Origin: Bradyrhizobium sp. LTSP885
GTDB taxonomy: Bacteria; Pseudomonadota; Alphaproteobacteria; Rhizobiales; Xanthobacteraceae
Direction of reading: 5' to 3'
Assembly: GCF_000938305.1 (NCBI RefSeq)
Contig: NZ_JYMT01000042.1
Span: 248,001-312,000 of the forward strand
DNA length: 64,000 nt
The notes beneath the pieces were generated by a model. The model saw only the letters and a program-made list of their open reading frames with translations, was not told the origin of the DNA and made no database searches. The translations under genes and the position numbers were made by a program. Shown here in pieces: positions 49,616 through 56,050 of this stretch; position 1 is the stretch's first letter; each line of letters opens with the position of its first letter.

Positions 49616-50884
49616 CTATTTGGAGCCGACGAAATAGAAGTCTTGCCGGCCAGAAATTGAGCCGTAACTGAAAGGTTGCTGCCGCCGATTGGTAAGTTCC
49701 AAAACGTCGTCGCGAACTAAGTCAAACAAACGACGCACCTCAACATCGGGGATTTGAACTTCCCTAACGAAAGCTAATGTGAACGGGCTGTCGACGCCTT
49801 CCCCATCAAATGCCTGCTGCCCATCTTTTGCGGCGTAGACAACAAGGGTCCCGGCGTCCGGTTCGATCGCTGCAAGCCCGCTTGAAACTGATCGAGACGC
49901 AACCGCTAGCGTTCGCTTCATCCGAACCTTAAATGGATTGTCGCGGCACGCATCGAGTATCACGAGCCGAAGCTTCTTTGCGCGTTCAGCAGCGTTGAGA
50001 ACTTGTTCCAACGACACAGCTTCAAAGGCAGTATCTCGATCAGCAGCGATCTTAGCATCGGTCGGCACGAGAAAATTTACACCCCCAATCTCCATACCGT
50101 GACCCGCGTAGTAAATGATTGCCCAATCGGCCTGATTCGCTTCCAGAGCAAATTTTTGTAAGGCGGTCTCCATCGCCCCCTTCGAAAGGTTAGTCAGCAA
50201 TGTAACCGCGTTGAAGCCAGTTTGCTTTAGAGTCTCAGCGACCAACCGCGCATCCCGCTCTGGGTTAGGTAGCTGCGGAACGCTTGCATACGTTGAGTTA
50301 CCAATGACAAGTGCAATGCGACGATCGGTTGACGATCGATCGTTTTTCTCTCGTTTGGCAGACGAGGCGGTCGAACTGGCGGATGGCGCAACTGTCTGGT
50401 CGATCGATGTCGAAGACAAAATTTTATCGAGGAGCGAAATTCGTCCCGCTGCTCCGCACGACAAAGCAGATCCTTTGATGTGCCAATTAGGTCGAATAAG
50501 GGTCTGGAGACCTTGCATGGTCCAACCCAACGTAACCATGTCCATCCCCGGACCGTCGAGCGACAGATGTTCAACGTTTATGAACAATCTCTGACCATCG
50601 TCGAATTCAACGGAGAAGCCAGTCGGCGACATGCCGCGCTTGTCAAACGCGATCTTCGCTATCTTTCCTTCAAACGAAAAGGGATGGCCTGGGTCACATC
50701 CCTTCGACAAGTTAGAAAGCGACACGACCTTATCGTGAAACACTTTGTACTGGACACCTTTCGGATCGGAACTCTTGTGCCAGCCTTCCATTCCGTAGTC
50801 AGAATCGTCTTGGGCCCGAACGCTTGAGCCAAACCAAGTGATTGACAGCGCCAAAAAAAGCATGGCGGCACGTTTGAAGGGCAC
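49616..50884 (-). CDS. secreted caspase-family (metacaspase-like) protein
   Basis: A 422-residue protein with a signal peptide (MPFKRAAMLFLALSITWF..., cleaved near SVRA). The N-terminal ~170 residues are of unknown fold. The caspase p20-like domain starts at about residue 189 (RRIALVIGNSTYASVPQL). The catalytic dyad His262 (YYAGHGMEIGG) and Cys313 (VILDACRDNPF) is intact. Such proteins are common in rhizobia and usually periplasmic; substrates are unknown. Its bases look less GC-rich than the surrounding sulfur genes. Confidence 0.88.
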   Translation of the reverse strand: MPFKRAAMLFLALSITWFGSSVRAQDDSDYGMEGWHKSSDPKGVQYKVFHDKVVSLSNLSKGCDPGHPFSFEGKIAKIAFDKRGMSPTGFSVEFDDGQRLFINVEHLSLDGPGMDMVTLGWTMQGLQTLIRPNWHIKGSALSCGAAGRISLLDKILSSTSIDQTVAPSASSTASSAKREKNDRSSTDRRIALVIGNSTYASVPQLPNPERDARLVAETLKQTGFNAVTLLTNLSKGAMETALQKFALEANQADWAIIYYAGHGMEIGGVNFLVPTDAKIAADRDTAFEAVSLEQVLNAAERAKKLRLVILDACRDNPFKVRMKRTLAVASRSVSSGLAAIEPDAGTLVVYAAKDGQQAFDGEGVDSPFTLAFVREVQIPDVEVRRLFDLVRDDVLELTNRRQQPFSYGSISGRQDFYFVGSK

Positions 50885-51087
50885 GGATAACCTCCTCAGT
50901 TTTCCTCTTCAGTTTAATACTAATCAGCCGGTTGCTCGGGAAGAGCGAGTTTTTCGGCAACCGCTCCTGCAATGTGGAATTTTCCAGCGGGAACGAGCAC
51001 TTCGGGAACGAGCTAAGGAACGACAGTCGAGCACAAAATTATGGGTCCAGCGCCGTCACCGTAATTCCGGCGCCCACGCCGCCGTTG

Positions 51088-51471
51088 TCAGCGATTCGGG
51101 ACGGGTGCGAAGACAAACACGAACAGCTTCCAGCGCTCATAGCCACTATCGGGAAGCTTGATCGGCTGACACTGCGTCACGGCGCTGATCGCATCCGCGA
51201 CGGCCATCTGGTAGGCGTCGGTCCCGTTCTTCTCTTCGGGCACCGGAGTGCCATCGAGCGACCCGTCAGGCTTGAAATGGACCATCAGGGCGACCTTTTG
51301 ATCCCGCGCGGCGTCTCGCGGCTTCCAGCAGCGCTGAATCTGTTTGTAGATCGACGTAGCCTCGGTCGAGAGCTGCTTCGGCGGAATCGCATTGGCCGGT
51401 TGCGCGTGCGCGACGCTGGTCAGAACCGCACACGGCAGGACAATGGTTGCGAGCAGCCTCGGCGTGAACAT
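51088..51471 (-). CDS. secreted protein with TonB/TolA-C-like domain
   Basis: A 127-residue protein with signal peptide MFTPRLLATIVLPCAVLTSVAHA. The mature part has IQRCWKPRDAARDQKVAL, then MVHFKPDGSLDG and AISAVTQCQPIKLP. Two cysteines and the beta-alpha-beta layout resemble the C-terminal domain of TolA/TonB-like proteins. No membrane anchor is present. Function is unknown. Its start lies 49 bp outside the tRNA-derived repeat that bounds the island. Confidence 0.75.
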   Translation of the reverse strand: MFTPRLLATIVLPCAVLTSVAHAQPANAIPPKQLSTEATSIYKQIQRCWKPRDAARDQKVALMVHFKPDGSLDGTPVPEEKNGTDAYQMAVADAISAVTQCQPIKLPDSGYERWKLFVFVFAPVPNR

Positions 51472-51519
51472 GACCCGATGACCCTTGTGGTGAGACGCTT
51501 GCCCTCAGACGTCAATCAC

Positions 51520-51566
51520 TGGCGATCCCAGCAGGATTCGAACCTGCAACCCACGGAGTAGAAATC
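51520..51566 (-). repeat. 47-bp copy of the tRNA-Arg 3' end (attachment-site repeat)
   Basis: Positions 51520-51566 match 54653-54699 over 47 bp without a mismatch by eye. They cover the CCA end, acceptor arm, T arm, variable region and part of the anticodon arm of the tRNA-Arg gene. Similarity stops sharply after GAAATC. Both copies have the same orientation. This is the usual footprint of a tRNA-targeted integrative element, with this repeat at the distal end. Confidence 0.9.
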
Positions 51567-51685
51567 TTCCGAGAAGCGTGTCTTTTCAATAGGTTAGAAT
51601 TCCGGTGTTGCGGTGGCGTTGCGCGGGGCGAGGTAGCCGGGATAATATCGAGGGGTTACCCGTGTTGGAGAACGACGGAGGAATC

Positions 51686-51868
51686 ATGGTGAACGACGAA
51701 AAAGAGATTAAACCCCTGGAAGATATTTTGTACGCGCGAACTATGACCACAGGACATATTTCTGAGGCCTTGAGCCCGCAGGCTCCAGTCGCGCCGCCGG
51801 CTCCGCCAGCTCCGCCGATTGAGCCACCCTCGGAAGCGCCGACACCTCGCCCCGAAGCGGAAAAGTGA
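51686..51868 (+). CDS. small Pro-rich protein in the tRNA-bounded island
   Basis: A 60-residue protein from ATG 51686 with CGGAGGA as ribosome site. It has an acidic N-terminal part (MVNDEKEIKPLEDILYAR) and a Pro/Ala-rich tail (APVAPPAPPAPPIEPPSEAP). It has no signal peptide or membrane helix. It overlaps the next gene by 4 bp (GTGA), so the two are coupled. Function is unknown. Confidence 0.55.
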   Translation: MVNDEKEIKPLEDILYARTMTTGHISEALSPQAPVAPPAPPAPPIEPPSEAPTPRPEAEK

Positions 51869-52347
51869 ATCATCTAGTTCCCGACAAAGAAACGATCGAC
51901 CTCGTCACCTTCTACGCCGGTGTTGCGACGATCCTAGCTATGCCCTTCGGCGTTGGCGCAGTTTGGTATGCCGCACGTCAATTATCTCTCGCGCGCAAGG
52001 CAGGATCCGGTGCTTCACTAATCGCTCCGAGCGAAGCATTTAGACAATGCTGGAGGGAGTTCCTTTCGGCTTCAGACGACACTAAACGAAGGTACGCTTT
52101 CGGCGATCTCGCAAACAGCCTCGAGGTTGCCTGCGCGGTCTTTCGGGACAAGGTGTTCTTCGGGCGATCCGCAGATCTACTCGAGAATTACCTGGTTAGC
52201 GTTTTTCCGCTCATCGAGGGAAACGCGGAAGCTCGGGCAAGGATGGAAAGTCTTCTACAGACGTCACGAACGTTCGAAAATGTAGTGGAGTTTCTAAAGA
52301 ACCACCGCGACGAAGGCCTTCCCCGCCTACCGACATCACCCCAGTAA
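51865..52347 (+). CDS. membrane-anchored hypothetical protein, coupled to the preceding gene
   Basis: A 160-residue protein starting at GTG 51865, overlapping the previous stop. One hydrophobic helix near the N-terminus (LVTFYAGVATILAMPFGVG) is followed by a cytoplasmic helical domain (FGDLANSLEVACAVFRDK, then LENYLVSVFPLIEG). No known motif is seen. Its end overlaps the integrase remnant on the other strand by 12 bp. As cargo of an integrated element it could act in phage or plasmid interactions, which is speculation. Confidence 0.6.
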   Translation: MNHLVPDKETIDLVTFYAGVATILAMPFGVGAVWYAARQLSLARKAGSGASLIAPSEAFRQCWREFLSASDDTKRRYAFGDLANSLEVACAVFRDKVFFGRSADLLENYLVSVFPLIEGNAEARARMESLLQTSRTFENVVEFLKNHRDEGLPRLPTSPQ

Positions 52348-52659
52348 GCGCGCCTGTACTGATTCCGCCGCCCGTTGATCCCCTTCGGCATCTGCAAACA
52401 GGTGCCCATAGATATCGAACGTCACCTTGATCGAGCTGTGCCCCATTAGGCGCTGGATCTGCTTCGGATTATAGCCGCTCTCGATCCGGAGTGAGGCACA
52501 GGCGTGCCGCAGGCTGAGTAACTGGATATGGCTCGTCAGTTCTACATCGGCTTCGCGCGGAACACGGGCCTCGAAGCGGCGATAATAACTCGCCCGGGAC
52601 ACGCCGGCGAGCTTGCAGAGATGCTGAACGTCGACTTTGCCGGCGTCAGATGCAGTCAT
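52336..52659 (-). pseudogene. chimeric remnant: IS3 OrfB start fused to tyrosine integrase end
   Basis: The 107-residue frame joins two unrelated proteins. Residues 1 to ~48 (VQHLCKLAGVSRASYYRRFE and DVELTSHIQLL) are the start of an IS3-family OrfB transposase. From ~49 the sequence LRHACASLRIESGYNPKQIQ and LMGHSSIKVTFDIYGHLF is the C-terminal end of a tyrosine recombinase, with the catalytic Arg/His, His and nucleophile Tyr84. The rest of both genes is missing. The junction near 52512 records a deletion after IS insertion into the integrase. It is unlikely to be active. Confidence 0.85.
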
Positions 52660-53124
52660 GACTTCGATGACTTCCGTGAGACGGGCGCGATTGAGCCTTG
52701 CCGATCCGCTGCGTCCAAGGCGCGCAAGGCTTTGTGAAAAAAATCGATATCGAGCGCCTGTTGTCCGATCTTGCGTTCAAGTTCGGCAATCTTCGCCCGC
52801 GCCCTGGCCAGTTCGCCGCGGCTGCCCGTCGCCGCCGGTTCGGCTAATGGGCGTAACTTGCGAGGCCCGGGTTTGGGGCCGCGCTTGCGATTCAATCCCT
52901 CAGGTCCGTGGGCCTTCCACGCCTTGATCCAGTCATGCAGAAGCTTGCGCGATATCCCAAGCTTGCGGGCCACAGGCAGAACGCCTTCGCCGCCTTCAGC
53001 ACGCTTGATCGCCTTCTGTACGCCGTCGGAAACGTCCGGATCGCCATTTTGTCTGTCATCGGTCATCCTCAGGGATAACCTGTCACAGAAATTAGCGTGT
53101 CTCACTTACGGGGTGCAGTCCAGC
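52512..53124 (-). mobile_element. truncated IS3-family insertion sequence
   Basis: The element contains a complete OrfA and only the first ~48 codons of OrfB. The likely terminal repeat at the 5' end reads TGGACTGCACCCCGTAAG on the minus strand (ending near 53124), an IS3-type end beginning with TG. The 3' end is lost at the fusion with the integrase remnant. It cannot transpose by itself. Confidence 0.75.
52656..53066 (-). CDS. IS3-family transposase OrfA
   Basis: A 136-residue DNA-binding transposase subunit from ATG 53066 (MTDDRQNGDPDVSDGVQK). The helix-turn-helix is LPVARKLGISRKLLHDWIKA. A leucine-zipper-like coiled coil follows (ARAKIAELERKIGQQALDID, then FFHKALRAL). It overlaps the OrfB start by ATGA at 52656-52659. 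OrfB is truncated, so only the regulatory and DNA-binding half of the transposase remains. Confidence 0.85.
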   Translation of the reverse strand: MTDDRQNGDPDVSDGVQKAIKRAEGGEGVLPVARKLGISRKLLHDWIKAWKAHGPEGLNRKRGPKPGPRKLRPLAEPAATGSRGELARARAKIAELERKIGQQALDIDFFHKALRALDAADRQGSIAPVSRKSSKS

Positions 53125-53260
53125 ACTGTCACCGTAACTCCACCGTAACTCAGGCCTTGCTTCCATCCGTCGCGAACGCACGAGCCAGAACCAGAGGCGT
53201 GGCAGCCGACACCGCAGGATCCGCCCAAAAAAGCGGAGGCGGGAAGTAGGCGACGACGAC

Positions 53261-53288
53261 AAGGGCGCGGGGCTTCTCCCGCGCCCTT
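53261..53288. terminator. intrinsic terminator hairpin
   Basis: A perfect 11-bp stem AAGGGCGCGGG / CCCGCGCCCTT with a 6-nt loop is followed by TT on the plus side. It lies 14 bp after the end of the minus-strand beta-helix gene and is well placed to end its transcript, although the T tract is on the plus side. Confidence 0.65.
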
Positions 53289-53301
53289 TTAAATTGAAGG
53301 C

Positions 53302-54222
53302 CTACTGTAATCCCTGCGGGCTGCTAATCGCACCCACGGGACTGATCGTACCTCCGCCACCGTTATTCAAGAGACTGCTGTCGACATGCGACTGAATGGT
53401 GCCACTCAGGCCGACAGCATTGTAAGAGAGGTCGCTGTCGCGAACGCGGACGGTGCCATTCGCAATTATGCCGGTCGCGTTGCCCAGGATGATGCTGGAA
53501 GTGATCATCACGGTCGCGCCGGTATCCGTCTCGACGCCCGCCGTGACATGCTGCGACGCGATCGAGTTCTTGATGATGGCCTGAGCGCCGTTTCCAATCG
53601 CGAAACCGAAGTTGGAGTCGAACGTGCTGACGTTGTCTAACGTCGCCTTGACTGTCGAGGCGCCCGACGCAGCTGCAACAGCAAGCGCTGTGCCAAAATT
53701 GTTTCGGATAACCGTGTTTTTGACGAGGAAAGCGCCGTTGTTTGCGGCGTTAAGAATACCATTCTGAGTGAAACCATCGATCACGCAGTCCTCGATACTG
53801 ATTGCGTTATTGTTGTTGGTGGTACCGATGATCGAGATGCCCTTTGTGCCGGTGAGAATTCCACTGATGCTGAGACCTCGAAGCCGCACGATCATCGACG
53901 GCGCGGAATCCACGTTGATCGTGACTCCGACGGTGCCGGCTGCAAGTATGGAGCCGTAAGTTCCGGTGCAGTCGATGCCAATAGACTTCGTAATCGTCAC
54001 GACTCCGTAGCCGCCCGGATCGAGACAGTTGATTTCACCCAGCGCTGCGGTTTTCGAGATCGCACCCGCGAAGGTCTTACAAGGGGCCGTGCGGCTGCAT
54101 GGATTGGCGTCGTCACCGACACCGGATACCCACGTTCGTGTTGCCTGCGCATGAGCCGGAGCTGAAGTCAGAAGCGGCGAAAGCAATGCCGCGGCAAGAG
54201 CGAGGATCGCAACGTTTCGCAT
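53302..54222 (-). CDS. secreted right-handed parallel beta-helix protein
   Basis: A 306-residue exoprotein from ATG 54222 (MRNVAILALAAALLSPLL) with a signal peptide ending PAHAQA. The mature start TRTWVSGVGDDANPCSRTAP and CKTFAGAISKT is typical of a family of beta-helix proteins. After that, repeated strands rich in Asn/Ile/Val (SIEDCVIDGFTQNGI, VKNTVIRNNFG, IKNSIASQHVT, RVRDSDLSYNAVG) form the helix coils. No polysaccharide-lyase catalytic residues are identified. It lies inside the tRNA-bounded island. An upstream in-frame ATG at 54291 would spoil the signal peptide. Confidence 0.82.
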   Translation of the reverse strand: MRNVAILALAAALLSPLLTSAPAHAQATRTWVSGVGDDANPCSRTAPCKTFAGAISKTAALGEINCLDPGGYGVVTITKSIGIDCTGTYGSILAAGTVGVTINVDSAPSMIVRLRGLSISGILTGTKGISIIGTTNNNNAISIEDCVIDGFTQNGILNAANNGAFLVKNTVIRNNFGTALAVAAASGASTVKATLDNVSTFDSNFGFAIGNGAQAIIKNSIASQHVTAGVETDTGATVMITSSIILGNATGIIANGTVRVRDSDLSYNAVGLSGTIQSHVDSSLLNNGGGGTISPVGAISSPQGLQ

Positions 54223-54652
54223 TGTCACCTCCAAATGAATGAAAAATATCGGCCGGCCTAATAGGCATGCCATAGGCATCCTAACCTTCAAACTGGCCTT
54301 GTGTTAAGCGGTAACCTGCGCCCGTGCAGCAGTCGCGGCATGCCGAACGGGCCTTCAGCTTTGCCTTGCAGGTGGTCGCCAAGTTTGATCGCTATCGTGT
54401 TGGGTCCGGCGAACATCTGGTAGCCTCCGATTCTAGCGAGGCATCCCATTCGTGGCACGTGGAAATTCGGGGCAACGCACCGCACTGAATGTCGGTGCTA
54501 CTTCGAGAACAAATCCCGAAAGCGCCATGTACCGTCCGTGTGCCACGGACTAACTGGGACTATTCGGGAAAGGCTGAAATTAAAGGGTTTTCTTCGTAAC
54601 CTAGCGGTACACCGAAATTCGGCGCTCAATAGCAACATCGCATTGAAAACGT
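54223..54652. other. intergenic region between beta-helix gene and tRNA-Arg
   Basis: No gene is supported. A small 7-bp stem with 3-nt loop (GTCCGTG TGC CACGGAC, 54534-54550) is present. This is the stretch next to the tRNA 3' end where an intact integrase gene might have been expected; none is seen. Confidence 0.45.
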
Positions 54653-54729
54653 TGGCGATCCCAGCAGGATTCGAACCTGCAACCCACGGAGTAGAAATCC
54701 GTTACTCTATCCAGTTGAGCTATGGGACC
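54653..54729 (-). tRNA. tRNA-Arg (anticodon UCU)
   Basis: A 77-nt cloverleaf on the minus strand, G1 at 54729. The acceptor stem GGTCCCA pairs with TGGGATC (one G-U). The D arm is GCTCAACTGGATAGAGT. The anticodon stem ACGGA / TCCGT has loop TTTCTAC, giving anticodon TCT. The T arm is GCAGG TTCGAAT CCTGC. The discriminator is G and CCA is encoded. Its 3' 47 bp are repeated at 51520, marking it as the integration site of a mobile element. Confidence 0.97.
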
Positions 54730-55002
54730 GTTGCCGTCTTCTACCACCCCCAATATGAAAAATCCGCTGTCGCGCCAAGCCTGTCCCGGCCGATTTTTCG
54801 TGATTGGGGATGACGGGGGCCCGGGGGCGCTCGCCGGGTGCGGCATTTTCGCAGCCCATCGGCGTTTGTGAACGAGCCCACAGCTCGCGCTGGGCGTGCG
54901 TGATATTACTAAACATGTCCAGCGTGTGATGGCCTGCGCTGGCTGAAGTGACGCGAGACTGCCGGCAGGCTGCGGTTCAAAACCCCATCAATGGAGACGA
55001 GA

Positions 55003-55374
55003 ATGACCCACCATATTATGCGTGCAGCATTACCCCTGCTGTGCTTCGCCCTGACAGCATCGGTCACCCCGGCGCTGGCGCAGCAGGCGCCATCGATCCA
55101 GGTCGGATCGGATACAAGGGCGAAATCGGAAGCCGAGTGTCTGAAGGATGCGAAGTTCGCGATCACCGAGACCGGCTTCGGTGTCACCTTTACGTCCGGT
55201 CCCCACATCGGCGGCGCCGGCGCCCTGAACGGGGTCGGCGCTGCCGTTATCGTCACCTGCCTGTCGCAGGGCGCAAGGACCTTCATCGAAGTGGTGGGCA
55301 CGAGCCTCGACGGTAACGTGGCAGGCGAAGCCCGCAACAGGGTTCGGACCATTACGATGGGGCCGCCGAGCTGA
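55003..55374 (+). CDS. small secreted hypothetical protein
   Basis: A 123-residue protein from ATG 55003 (GGAGACGAG before it) with a signal peptide (MTHHIMRAALPLLCFALTAS, cleaved after ALAQ). The mature part is Gly/Ala-rich with two cysteines (EAECLKDAKFAITETG and VIVTCLSQGARTFIEVVG) likely to form a disulfide. It is soluble and periplasmic. The family is unrecognised. Confidence 0.65.
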   Translation: MTHHIMRAALPLLCFALTASVTPALAQQAPSIQVGSDTRAKSEAECLKDAKFAITETGFGVTFTSGPHIGGAGALNGVGAAVIVTCLSQGARTFIEVVGTSLDGNVAGEARNRVRTITMGPPS

Positions 55375-55518
55375 AACTGTCCCGCCGCAAACAGCCTGGC
55401 GTTCGCCAGGCGGTGCGCCGAGGTTGCGCTGGGCCGAAAGCCCAGCGCAACGGTCGCCGGACCGCGGCATTGCGGTGACCGTAGCCAATGTTGCTAGCGG
55501 CTCGAACGAAGGCGCGCC

Positions 55519-55656
55519 CTAACGGAGGCGATCGTTGCCTTGCGCTGGCGGCAGCTTGATCGGGACATGCGGCGAGGTGCTGACGACCCTTACGCTGCCG
55601 TCATGGGCGTGGCTTCTAATTGTTTCCAGGATCAGAAAGAACTTTTCCGCAAGCAT
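55519..55656 (-). CDS. very small conserved protein
   Basis: A 45-residue protein from ATG 55656 with a strong GCGGAGG ribosome site. It reads MLAEKFFLILETIRSHAHDG, then RVVSTSPHVPIKLP. I recall short proteins of this pattern (FFLxLETL ... SSSPHVPIKLP) as recurrent in Bradyrhizobium, with unknown function. A longer frame to 55803 adds an unsupported leader. Confidence 0.6.
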   Translation of the reverse strand: MLAEKFFLILETIRSHAHDGSVRVVSTSPHVPIKLPPAQGNDRLR

Positions 55657-56050
55657 GGCGAACCTCCGCTGGCGGGTGAATCTGATGCGCATGTTACGGC
55701 CGTGCTCGCCTCGAGAACTATGACACATCTCACACTTGTCTCGCACTTGGCCGCCTTCAGCGCCGATGACGACGGCGGTCCGTATCCAAGGTAAATAATC
55801 CACTTCCAGCGCGGCTTGCTCCGAACCGATCGTGCGGGCTGCGCGACAAAGGCTGGCGGCGGACCGCGACCTGTGGGTCCGGCGTCAACGGCGTGCCGGT
55901 ATCCGCCGCCTGCCGCCGGTTAGGGATTCGTCGGGCAATGCTGTATGCGACTTTTCAGCCCGTTCATGTCAGCGCCATGAGTCCGTCACCTTTTCGCGCA
56001 CTTTTGCGTCCCACGCGGCTGTCGTCCGCGGGGCCTTTGGGAGCTCCATC
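55657..56050. other. upstream region of the alpha-2-macroglobulin operon
   Basis: No gene is supported. The macroglobulin frame is open upstream to 55832, but that part has no signal-peptide or family character, so it is taken as leader. The promoter of the operon must lie here. Confidence 0.45.

Follow-up and report, generated by a model that had tools for sequence, protein, structure and literature searches.

A 3.1-kb relic at a Bradyrhizobium tRNA-Arg(UCU) gene as the probable scar of two fused tandem elements, and the arm-site types of its integrase family

In this work, we examine a relic beside the tRNA-Arg(UCU) gene of Bradyrhizobium sp. LTSP885, contained in a 64,000-nucleotide stretch of contig NZ_JYMT01000042.1 (positions 248,001 to 312,000; hereafter the window, in whose coordinates the locus is described). 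The relic spans 3.1 kb between the intact tRNA gene and a copy of its 3′ end, and its two ends carry arm-like repeats of different types. It is probably the scar of a family of phage-like elements of about 16 kb, left when two tandem elements of different arm type were fused by deletion. By comparing the integrases of this family, we also found that the type of arm repeat goes with a single residue near the integrase N-terminus.

The window contains one tRNA gene according to ARAGORN, tRNA-Arg (tct) at 54653-54729 on the minus strand, which is the integration target and was matched in 31 of 31 genomes. The distal core of the attachment (att) site, attR, is a copy of tRNA positions 31-77 at 51520-51566 on the minus strand, starting in the anticodon arm and ending exactly at the tRNA 3′ end; it forms with 54653-54699 a direct repeat of 47 nt at 100% identity, in the same orientation and with a spacing of 3133. 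This repeat, proposed from the sequence in the original prediction, is borne out by both ARAGORN and the repeat comparison and is real rather than a product of chance: direct-repeat families in 50500-56000 otherwise reach no more than 27 nt (at 74%), other matches to the tRNA in the window are exact 10-mers only (short-word BLAST, E ≤ 10), and the tRNA and the fragment are the sole two matches to tRNA-Arg(UCU) in the strain's own genome at E ≤ 0.001. Its equivalents in relatives are tRNA fragments of 45-51 bp adjoining integrases of the family. A further repeat (D4, at 51045 and 53118) contains an insertion sequence (IS) end and was taken as lying outside the att structure. Copies of 55 bp, covering tRNA-Arg positions 23-77, occur at G012:C98, G191:C59, G061:C897 and G065:C1:1790834 (G numbers denote comparison genomes); these exceed the integrase-family fragments in length and lie on contigs other than that of the tRNA or at a great distance from it.

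Intact elements of the family occupy the same tRNA gene in other members of the genus. Searching 265 genus genomes with the integrase of G183, we found 33 with a match at E ≤ 1e-40 and 12 full-length integrases with at least 64% identity, as well as partial ones in G033 (73%) and G255 (66%). Eight of the 12 (G183, G276, G084, G054, G177, G065, G263 and G114) adjoin a tRNA-Arg(UCU) fragment of 45-51 bp located 60-641 bp from the integrase end, and the remaining four have no fragment; among more distant integrases (36-45% identity), 3 of 18 tested (G187, G134 and G002) have such a fragment. In G183 and G054 the tRNA and a 45-bp fragment are 15.8 and 15.4 kb apart, with the integrase beside the fragment, and both ends were also located for G263 (15.7 kb), G114 (16.0 kb), G276 (15.9 kb) and G177 (16.9 kb). 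The relatives' elements at this tRNA are 15.4-16.9 kb long, with repeats of 45-51 bp and an integrase beside the distal one.

In the selection of open reading frames (ORFs) searched, each of these six elements encodes one replication protein, together with a prohead protease or head protein, a terminase or a tail-collar protein in varying combinations. The intact relatives are probably phage-satellite-like elements, 'satellite' being a name that we infer. They are like the phage-inducible chromosomal islands (PICIs) and capsid-forming PICIs in being about 15-17 kb long and in having an integrase, a replication gene and a partial set of head, packaging and tail genes. Apart from the integrase end, Pfam and PHROG searches recognised no satellite-type gene in the relic. 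The G114 element also carries a C5 DNA methyltransferase and a Vsr endonuclease as cargo (L171:15429-17195).

The relic aligns with the G183 element at both of its ends, with 76% identity over 236 bp across the tRNA and the arm downstream of it, 93% over 54 bp at the fragment and 75% over 173 bp in the integrase. Other relics occur in G033, where a 3.3-kb interval at the tRNA keeps an integrase end, and in G214, where 0.8 kb at the tRNA retains 41 matching integrase residues; short integrase matches in G119 and G081 lie on contigs other than that of the tRNA. Outside the genus genomes, no record of the phage collection carries a family integrase at E 1e-30, and the seven plasmid records with an integrase match are all below 60% identity. 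An 11.8-kb viral contig, IMGVR_UViG_3300011440_000469 (L270), has a joined attP, that is, an arm, the tRNA-Arg core and an arm, beside a family integrase; its terminal repeat of at least 100 bp makes it probably circular, and it is probably the free circular form of an element. A probably circular contig with a joined attP suggests that the family still moves.

Both ends of these elements bear pairs of 7-bp repeats, which are putative arm sites bound by the integrase. They come in a GTGTACC-like type (ACC type, with variants GTGTATC, GTGTACG and GTGTCTC) and a GTGTTGC type (TGC type). In the window, the inner edge of attR (51586-51622, plus strand) comprises TCAATAGGTTAG (51586-51597) and the paired repeats GTGTTGC-GGTG-GCGTTGC (51605-51622), which are of TGC type and lie at offset 85. 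On the tRNA side, attL has the ACC-type pair ATGTACC-GTCC-GTGTGCC at 54527-54544 on the plus strand, and a third, inverted arm-like site at 54606-54612 on the minus strand (GGTACAC on the plus strand); judged by eye, the attL arms of relatives often contain such an inverted copy as well. The position of the pairs is regular. In 10 of 10 attR edges (the window, G033, G183, G276, G084, G054, G177, G065, G263 and G114), a pair with an 11-bp period scores best at offset 85 from the core start, the G214 relic has a TGC-type pair at that offset as well, and the attL arms of the first-compared elements have a pair 126-149 bp from the tRNA end in eight of eight cases. Across the window, 11 of 127,966 positions score at least 12 and one reaches 13, and those that fall within the relic, two in number, lie at its ends; as the score was designed after the motif had been seen, these figures describe rarity and are no independent test. 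Outside the family, the attR edges beside the divergent integrases of G187, G134 and G002 (44%) show comparable repeats at that offset, but the attL arms lack a pair at score 12 and the N-terminus of these integrases could not be aligned residue by residue; no arm pair lies near the integrases of L207 and L208 (41%). Of 14 viral stretches with the tRNA core, three come from two family contigs; the other 11 yielded one attR-side pair at the expected offset and one lone left-side pair.

The relic has an integrase C-terminus by its distal repeat and arm pairs at both ends, as the family does, but its ends differ, being of ACC type at the tRNA and of TGC type at the fragment. The end types agree in 10 of 10 comparison elements in which both ends are readable: they are of ACC type in G183, G263, G084 (whose ends are on two contigs) and two viral contigs of 17.3 and 11.8 kb, and of TGC type in G276, G054, G177, G114 and G033. 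The 17.3-kb contig has the core near both ends as well as a tRNA-Arg; its type was judged by eye, and its attL pair was not flagged in the score-12 scan. Because the integrase of G065 is 69 kb from the tRNA, this genome was not counted; both of its ends are of TGC type. The attL arm of the window is 65-73% identical to ACC-type arms, 72% to that of G065 and 48-55% to the other TGC-type arms. Given the mismatched end types, we interpret the 3.1 kb as what remains of two tandem elements, namely their outer ends, after fusion by deletion. A mixed tandem arrangement is seen in G054, whose TGC-type element has an ACC-type pair (GTGTACA-ATCC-GTGTACT) directly beyond its fragment, which is what stacking of elements of both types would be expected to give.

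The interior of the relic contains a fused integrase. The C-terminal 61 residues of a tyrosine integrase (52336-52521, minus strand; PF00589, E 8.7e-9), 86.9% identical to the G183 integrase and 85.2% to that of G054, are joined in frame to the start of an IS3-type orfB. These residues are all that the window has of the integrase gene, and a search of the strain's own genome with the G183 integrase gave nothing at E ≤ 1e-40; with the 61 residues as query, 17 of the 265 genus genomes match at E ≤ 1e-15. The IS3-family remnant (52504-53122, minus strand; its end near 53122 judged by eye) consists of orfA at 52656-53105, which is matched by the NCBIfam IS3 model at E 1.3e-7, below its cutoff, and of the first part of orfB, and 494 bp of it are matched at 92% by a copy elsewhere in the same genome. 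Comparison with the own-genome copy places the junction at 52504-52516 (minus strand), in an SLRH-coding stretch: the fuller IS copy reads HIQRLSLRHKFCGYRR, the window reads HIQLLSLRHACASL and an intact integrase reads LHSLRHACASL. A junction inside a stretch common to both partners is as expected for a deletion at microhomology.

By analogy with such integrases, recombination between attP and the tRNA gene would rebuild the tRNA and leave its old 3′ end as the distal fragment. Two related elements with different arm types would have come to lie in tandem in this way, the end next to the tRNA coming from one of them and the distal end from the other, and a deletion with its junction in the short homology between the IS3 orfB and the integrase gene of the distal element would later have removed the middle. 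What would be left over is what the 3.1 kb contains, namely both outer att arms, 61 integrase residues, an IS3 fragment, a two-gene cassette and a beta-helix gene.

Several observations weigh against a fusion of two tandem elements. A tandem intermediate with both elements was not found for the window strain, the locus before deletion was not seen in any close relative (the best flank identity of any relative is 89%), and no arm pair lies directly outside the fragment in either G183 or the window locus. G065 has TGC repeats in a backbone otherwise typical of ACC arms. The attR edge of the window is nearest to that of G033 (69%), which is of TGC type, while its identity to the others is 48-63% and does not separate them clearly, so that its class rests mainly on the 7-bp repeats. 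Among six further tRNA-proximal arms, a pair is present in G084 and G065 and absent from G214, G081, G119 and G271, of which G214 and G081 also have a tRNA fragment less than 4 kb from the tRNA. The integrase remnant lacks the N-terminus, which makes its own arm type unreadable, and its C-terminus is closest to that of an ACC-type element (G084, 93% over 59 residues). Finally, a single element whose left end had been replaced by recombination would look identical.

Plain decay, in which one element lost its middle through an IS-associated deletion and its end types either diverged or were mixed from the start, is the simplest history and appears unlikely without being negligible. Both relic ends have homologues in the G183 element, and the analogous 3.3-kb relic of G033 retains an integrase C-terminus between ends that are both of one type; yet all 10 comparison elements have matching ends, including a probably circular one whose attP is joined, and a change from TACC to TTGC in both repeats needs several concerted changes. 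We consider it improbable that the fragment comes from an older and larger island reaching further left, with the 3.1 kb being a patchwork of unrelated insertions (the IS, the beta-helix gene and the cassette). About 51 kb do separate the tRNA from the conserved flank, G+C remains low leftwards from the fragment as far as about 49.2 kb (0.549 compared to 0.62-0.66 in the parts measured further out), and the cassette and beta-helix families occur elsewhere, but intact elements that extend exactly from tRNA to fragment have homologues of the integrase remnant, attR edge and attL arm in this order, and there is no arm pair in the 220 bp left of the fragment. That the tRNA 3′ end was copied by chance or without an integrase, for example by gene conversion, is hardly credible: tRNA fragments alone can arise by duplication, but here an exact 47-bp identity is accompanied by a remnant of the family integrase and by arm-like sites at the expected places. 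A tandem of two elements fused by deletion is the reading that we retain as probable.

The two arm types are mirrored in the integrases. Arm-binding tyrosine recombinases have a three-stranded N-terminal arm-binding domain ahead of their core-binding and catalytic domains (PMC8138268), a fold that the family integrases would share, judging by their N-terminal sequence. When the eight integrases are divided into ACC type (3) and TGC type (5), eight alignment columns separate the types, all within residues 8-33, and any other 3-5 split has at most three such columns among the first 60. Counted along the whole protein, the split that sets G263, G065 and G114 apart has more (29 columns), with one in the first 60, and the identity between G263 (ACC) and G114 (TGC) is 89% for the last part and 69% for the N-terminal part. 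The rest of the integrase thus groups differently from the N-terminal columns that follow the arm type.

This correspondence extends to integrases with no UCU fragment, as those of G082 and G271 have Gln17 and GTGTTGC repeats and those of G102 and G012 have Glu17 and GTGCTGT-like repeats, and to two viral-contig integrases with Arg17 and ACC-type repeats (the L205 pair, GTGTACT-GCGTCTC, being assigned by eye). Residue 17, as Arg, Gln or Glu, goes with the repeat type in 14 of 14 family integrases examined, which share ancestry and include two members of the Glu type; several of the other separating columns fail in part of the 14. Judging from these alignments, we see an even chance that the N-terminal domain reads the arm repeats through residue 17, after an invariant Trp16, and has been swapped independently of the catalytic domain and the tRNA target. 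Arg would then correspond to GTGTACC-like, Gln to GTGTTGC-like and Glu to GTGCTGT-like repeats, and the relic would be the scar of a tandem of incompatible arm specificities, with neither integrase able to excise the fused remnant and the remnant unable to excise by itself. The account of arm-binding domains in PMC8138268 reports no such correspondence between a residue and an arm sequence, unlike what we see in this family, and among the open-licence PMC papers listed no report of the element family or of a residue-17 rule was found in titles and the starts of abstracts.

The relic is one layer of a larger variable locus. The side 5′ of the tRNA is collinear in 18 relatives (from a macroglobulin-like gene at about 55.97 kb), and the downstream flank common to relatives corresponds to window positions 1-3.5 kb, with patches of homology to about 13.65 kb. 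The interval from the tRNA to this conserved flank (3500-54652) is about 51 kb, so the fragment is internal to it, and a lone 3.1-kb insertion into core DNA was rejected for that reason. Positions 51567-54500 have no nucleotide match (E ≤ 1e-8) downstream of the tRNA in any of the 18 relatives, over 6-18 kb each. In 89 genomes, own genome included, that had both flank markers on one contig and in the same order among the matches listed (split or inverted flanks being left out), the median distance between markers is 7.6 kb, 13 of the 89 exceed 20 kb and the distance in the window strain is 52.6 kb, which indicates that the tRNA is an integration hot spot and the 3.1 kb the layer next to it. 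G+C is 0.572 in the relic, 0.549 at 49.2-51.5 kb, 0.633 at 13.65-49.2 kb, 0.624 at 3.5-13.65 kb and 0.662 beyond 55.9 kb.

The original prediction had regarded the relic as the remainder of a larger island that lost its integrase. It holds in so far as this is a decayed tRNA-integrated element that has lost most of its integrase, with intact relatives of 15.4-16.9 kb at the same tRNA, and in none of the 18 relatives' loci were the same genes seen without the tRNA fragment. The relic is not a lone insertion, however, and since the ends carry different arm types, it is probably not the rump of one island either.

Elsewhere in the interval, 10 ORFs tested from 13650-49200 include organosulfur-type genes (a luciferase-like monooxygenase, a TauD dioxygenase and an ABC transporter gene) along with FAD and ferredoxin proteins and an enzyme of Cys/Met metabolism; G+C there is near that of the chromosome, and the 18 relatives' loci downstream of the tRNA show no nucleotide match to this part beyond the common flank. 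Many genomes of the genus have matches to an SsuA-like gene at 48.2 kb, but at other loci. A secreted-looking caspase-domain protein is encoded at 49616-50884 (PF00656, E 1.6e-33; PADLOC caspase model, E 1.1e-10), in the low-G+C DNA directly left of the tRNA fragment. On the other side, the roughly 1 kb from the tRNA 5′ side to the macroglobulin gene (54809-55819) holds a small secreted-type ORF (54991-55374) and has no DNA match in the compared relatives' loci; at this place G003 has 3.7 kb with a beta-helix gene.

The integrase remnant, IS3 remnant, coupled two-gene cassette and beta-helix protein named in the original prediction are all present, but the latter two may not belong to the element. 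The cassette, on the plus strand, consists of a small ORF of 60 aa with a Pro-rich C-terminus (51686-51868) and a second gene of 160 aa with an N-terminal hydrophobic stretch identified by eye (51865-52347), the two overlapping at 51865-51868. For the second gene, which is 53% identical to a G044 protein over the alignment, there is no match in Pfam, PADLOC, PHROG or NCBIfam; the small ORF has no family match either, although it was put neither to Pfam in the right length nor to NCBIfam. The cassette is found in 4 of 146 genus genomes including its own, two of the matches being weak (about 8e-4). Homologous pairs, in which a similar small ORF overlaps its partner, are present in two other Bradyrhizobium, sp. 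dw_411 and OK095 (2 loci), with neither a family integrase nor a tRNA-Arg fragment within the sequence stretches examined. A weak protein match of 44 residues (E 0.005) lies one kb from the tRNA of G016, where there is no corresponding ORF. A role of the cassette as a defence pair or as a hallmark of the element was therefore rejected. It sits in the gap between the integrase end and the distal repeat, which is 770 bp in the window compared to 60-641 bp in relatives and which may be a cargo slot. The G033 relic has a different small ORF, of 104 aa (L175:11662-11976), at the corresponding place.

The beta-helix gene encodes a secreted-type protein of 306 aa from an inner ATG (53302-54222, minus strand; PF13229, E 8.9e-6, at the cutoff). 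Of 13 genomes, four, its own among them, have homologues, which lie at other loci and in some are present in several copies, and nine have none at E ≤ 0.001; the intact elements of G183 and G054 are without one. With homologues at such scattered loci, the gene was rejected as cargo of the element. A weak protein match of 44 residues (E 0.005) lies one kb from the tRNA of G016, where there is no corresponding ORF.

Cis-mobilizable elements (CIMEs) are derivatives of integrative and conjugative elements (ICEs) that are flanked by attL and attR and have no integrase. The relic is like them in having kept attL and attR and lost its recombination genes, and differs in its apparently phage-like parents and in its two arms being of different types. 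Islands of B. japonicum USDA6 and USDA110 are bordered by the complete tRNA on one side and by a duplicated part of it on the other, and several islands can share a tRNA (PMC3927601); among those in Table 5 of that paper is one of 2,899 bp in trnR-ACG that has an 18-bp duplication and lacks an integrase. The islands compared here lie in other tRNA genes, and their descriptions mention no arm sites or integrase remnants. A tRNA-Arg gene is also an attachment site of symbiosis ICEs (symICEs) in Bradyrhizobium, which are conjugative and half a megabase to one megabase long (PMC9174649), whereas the family described here is about 16 kb and has genes of phage type.

The relic is a tRNA-associated island relic of a kind already known, and the correspondence between arm type and integrase is its most novel aspect. 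As such, the relic represents ordinary island decay, and its mismatched ends would be the fossil record of two elements that were stacked on one tRNA and fused. Among these related integrases, changes in arm-site sequence go with changes in N-terminal residues, whereas the tRNA target and the catalytic domain vary along other lines. Recognition of arm sites, for which a small number of model integrases have usually served, thereby becomes testable by domain exchange, and the arm type gives a sequence test of whether two att ends belong to one element.

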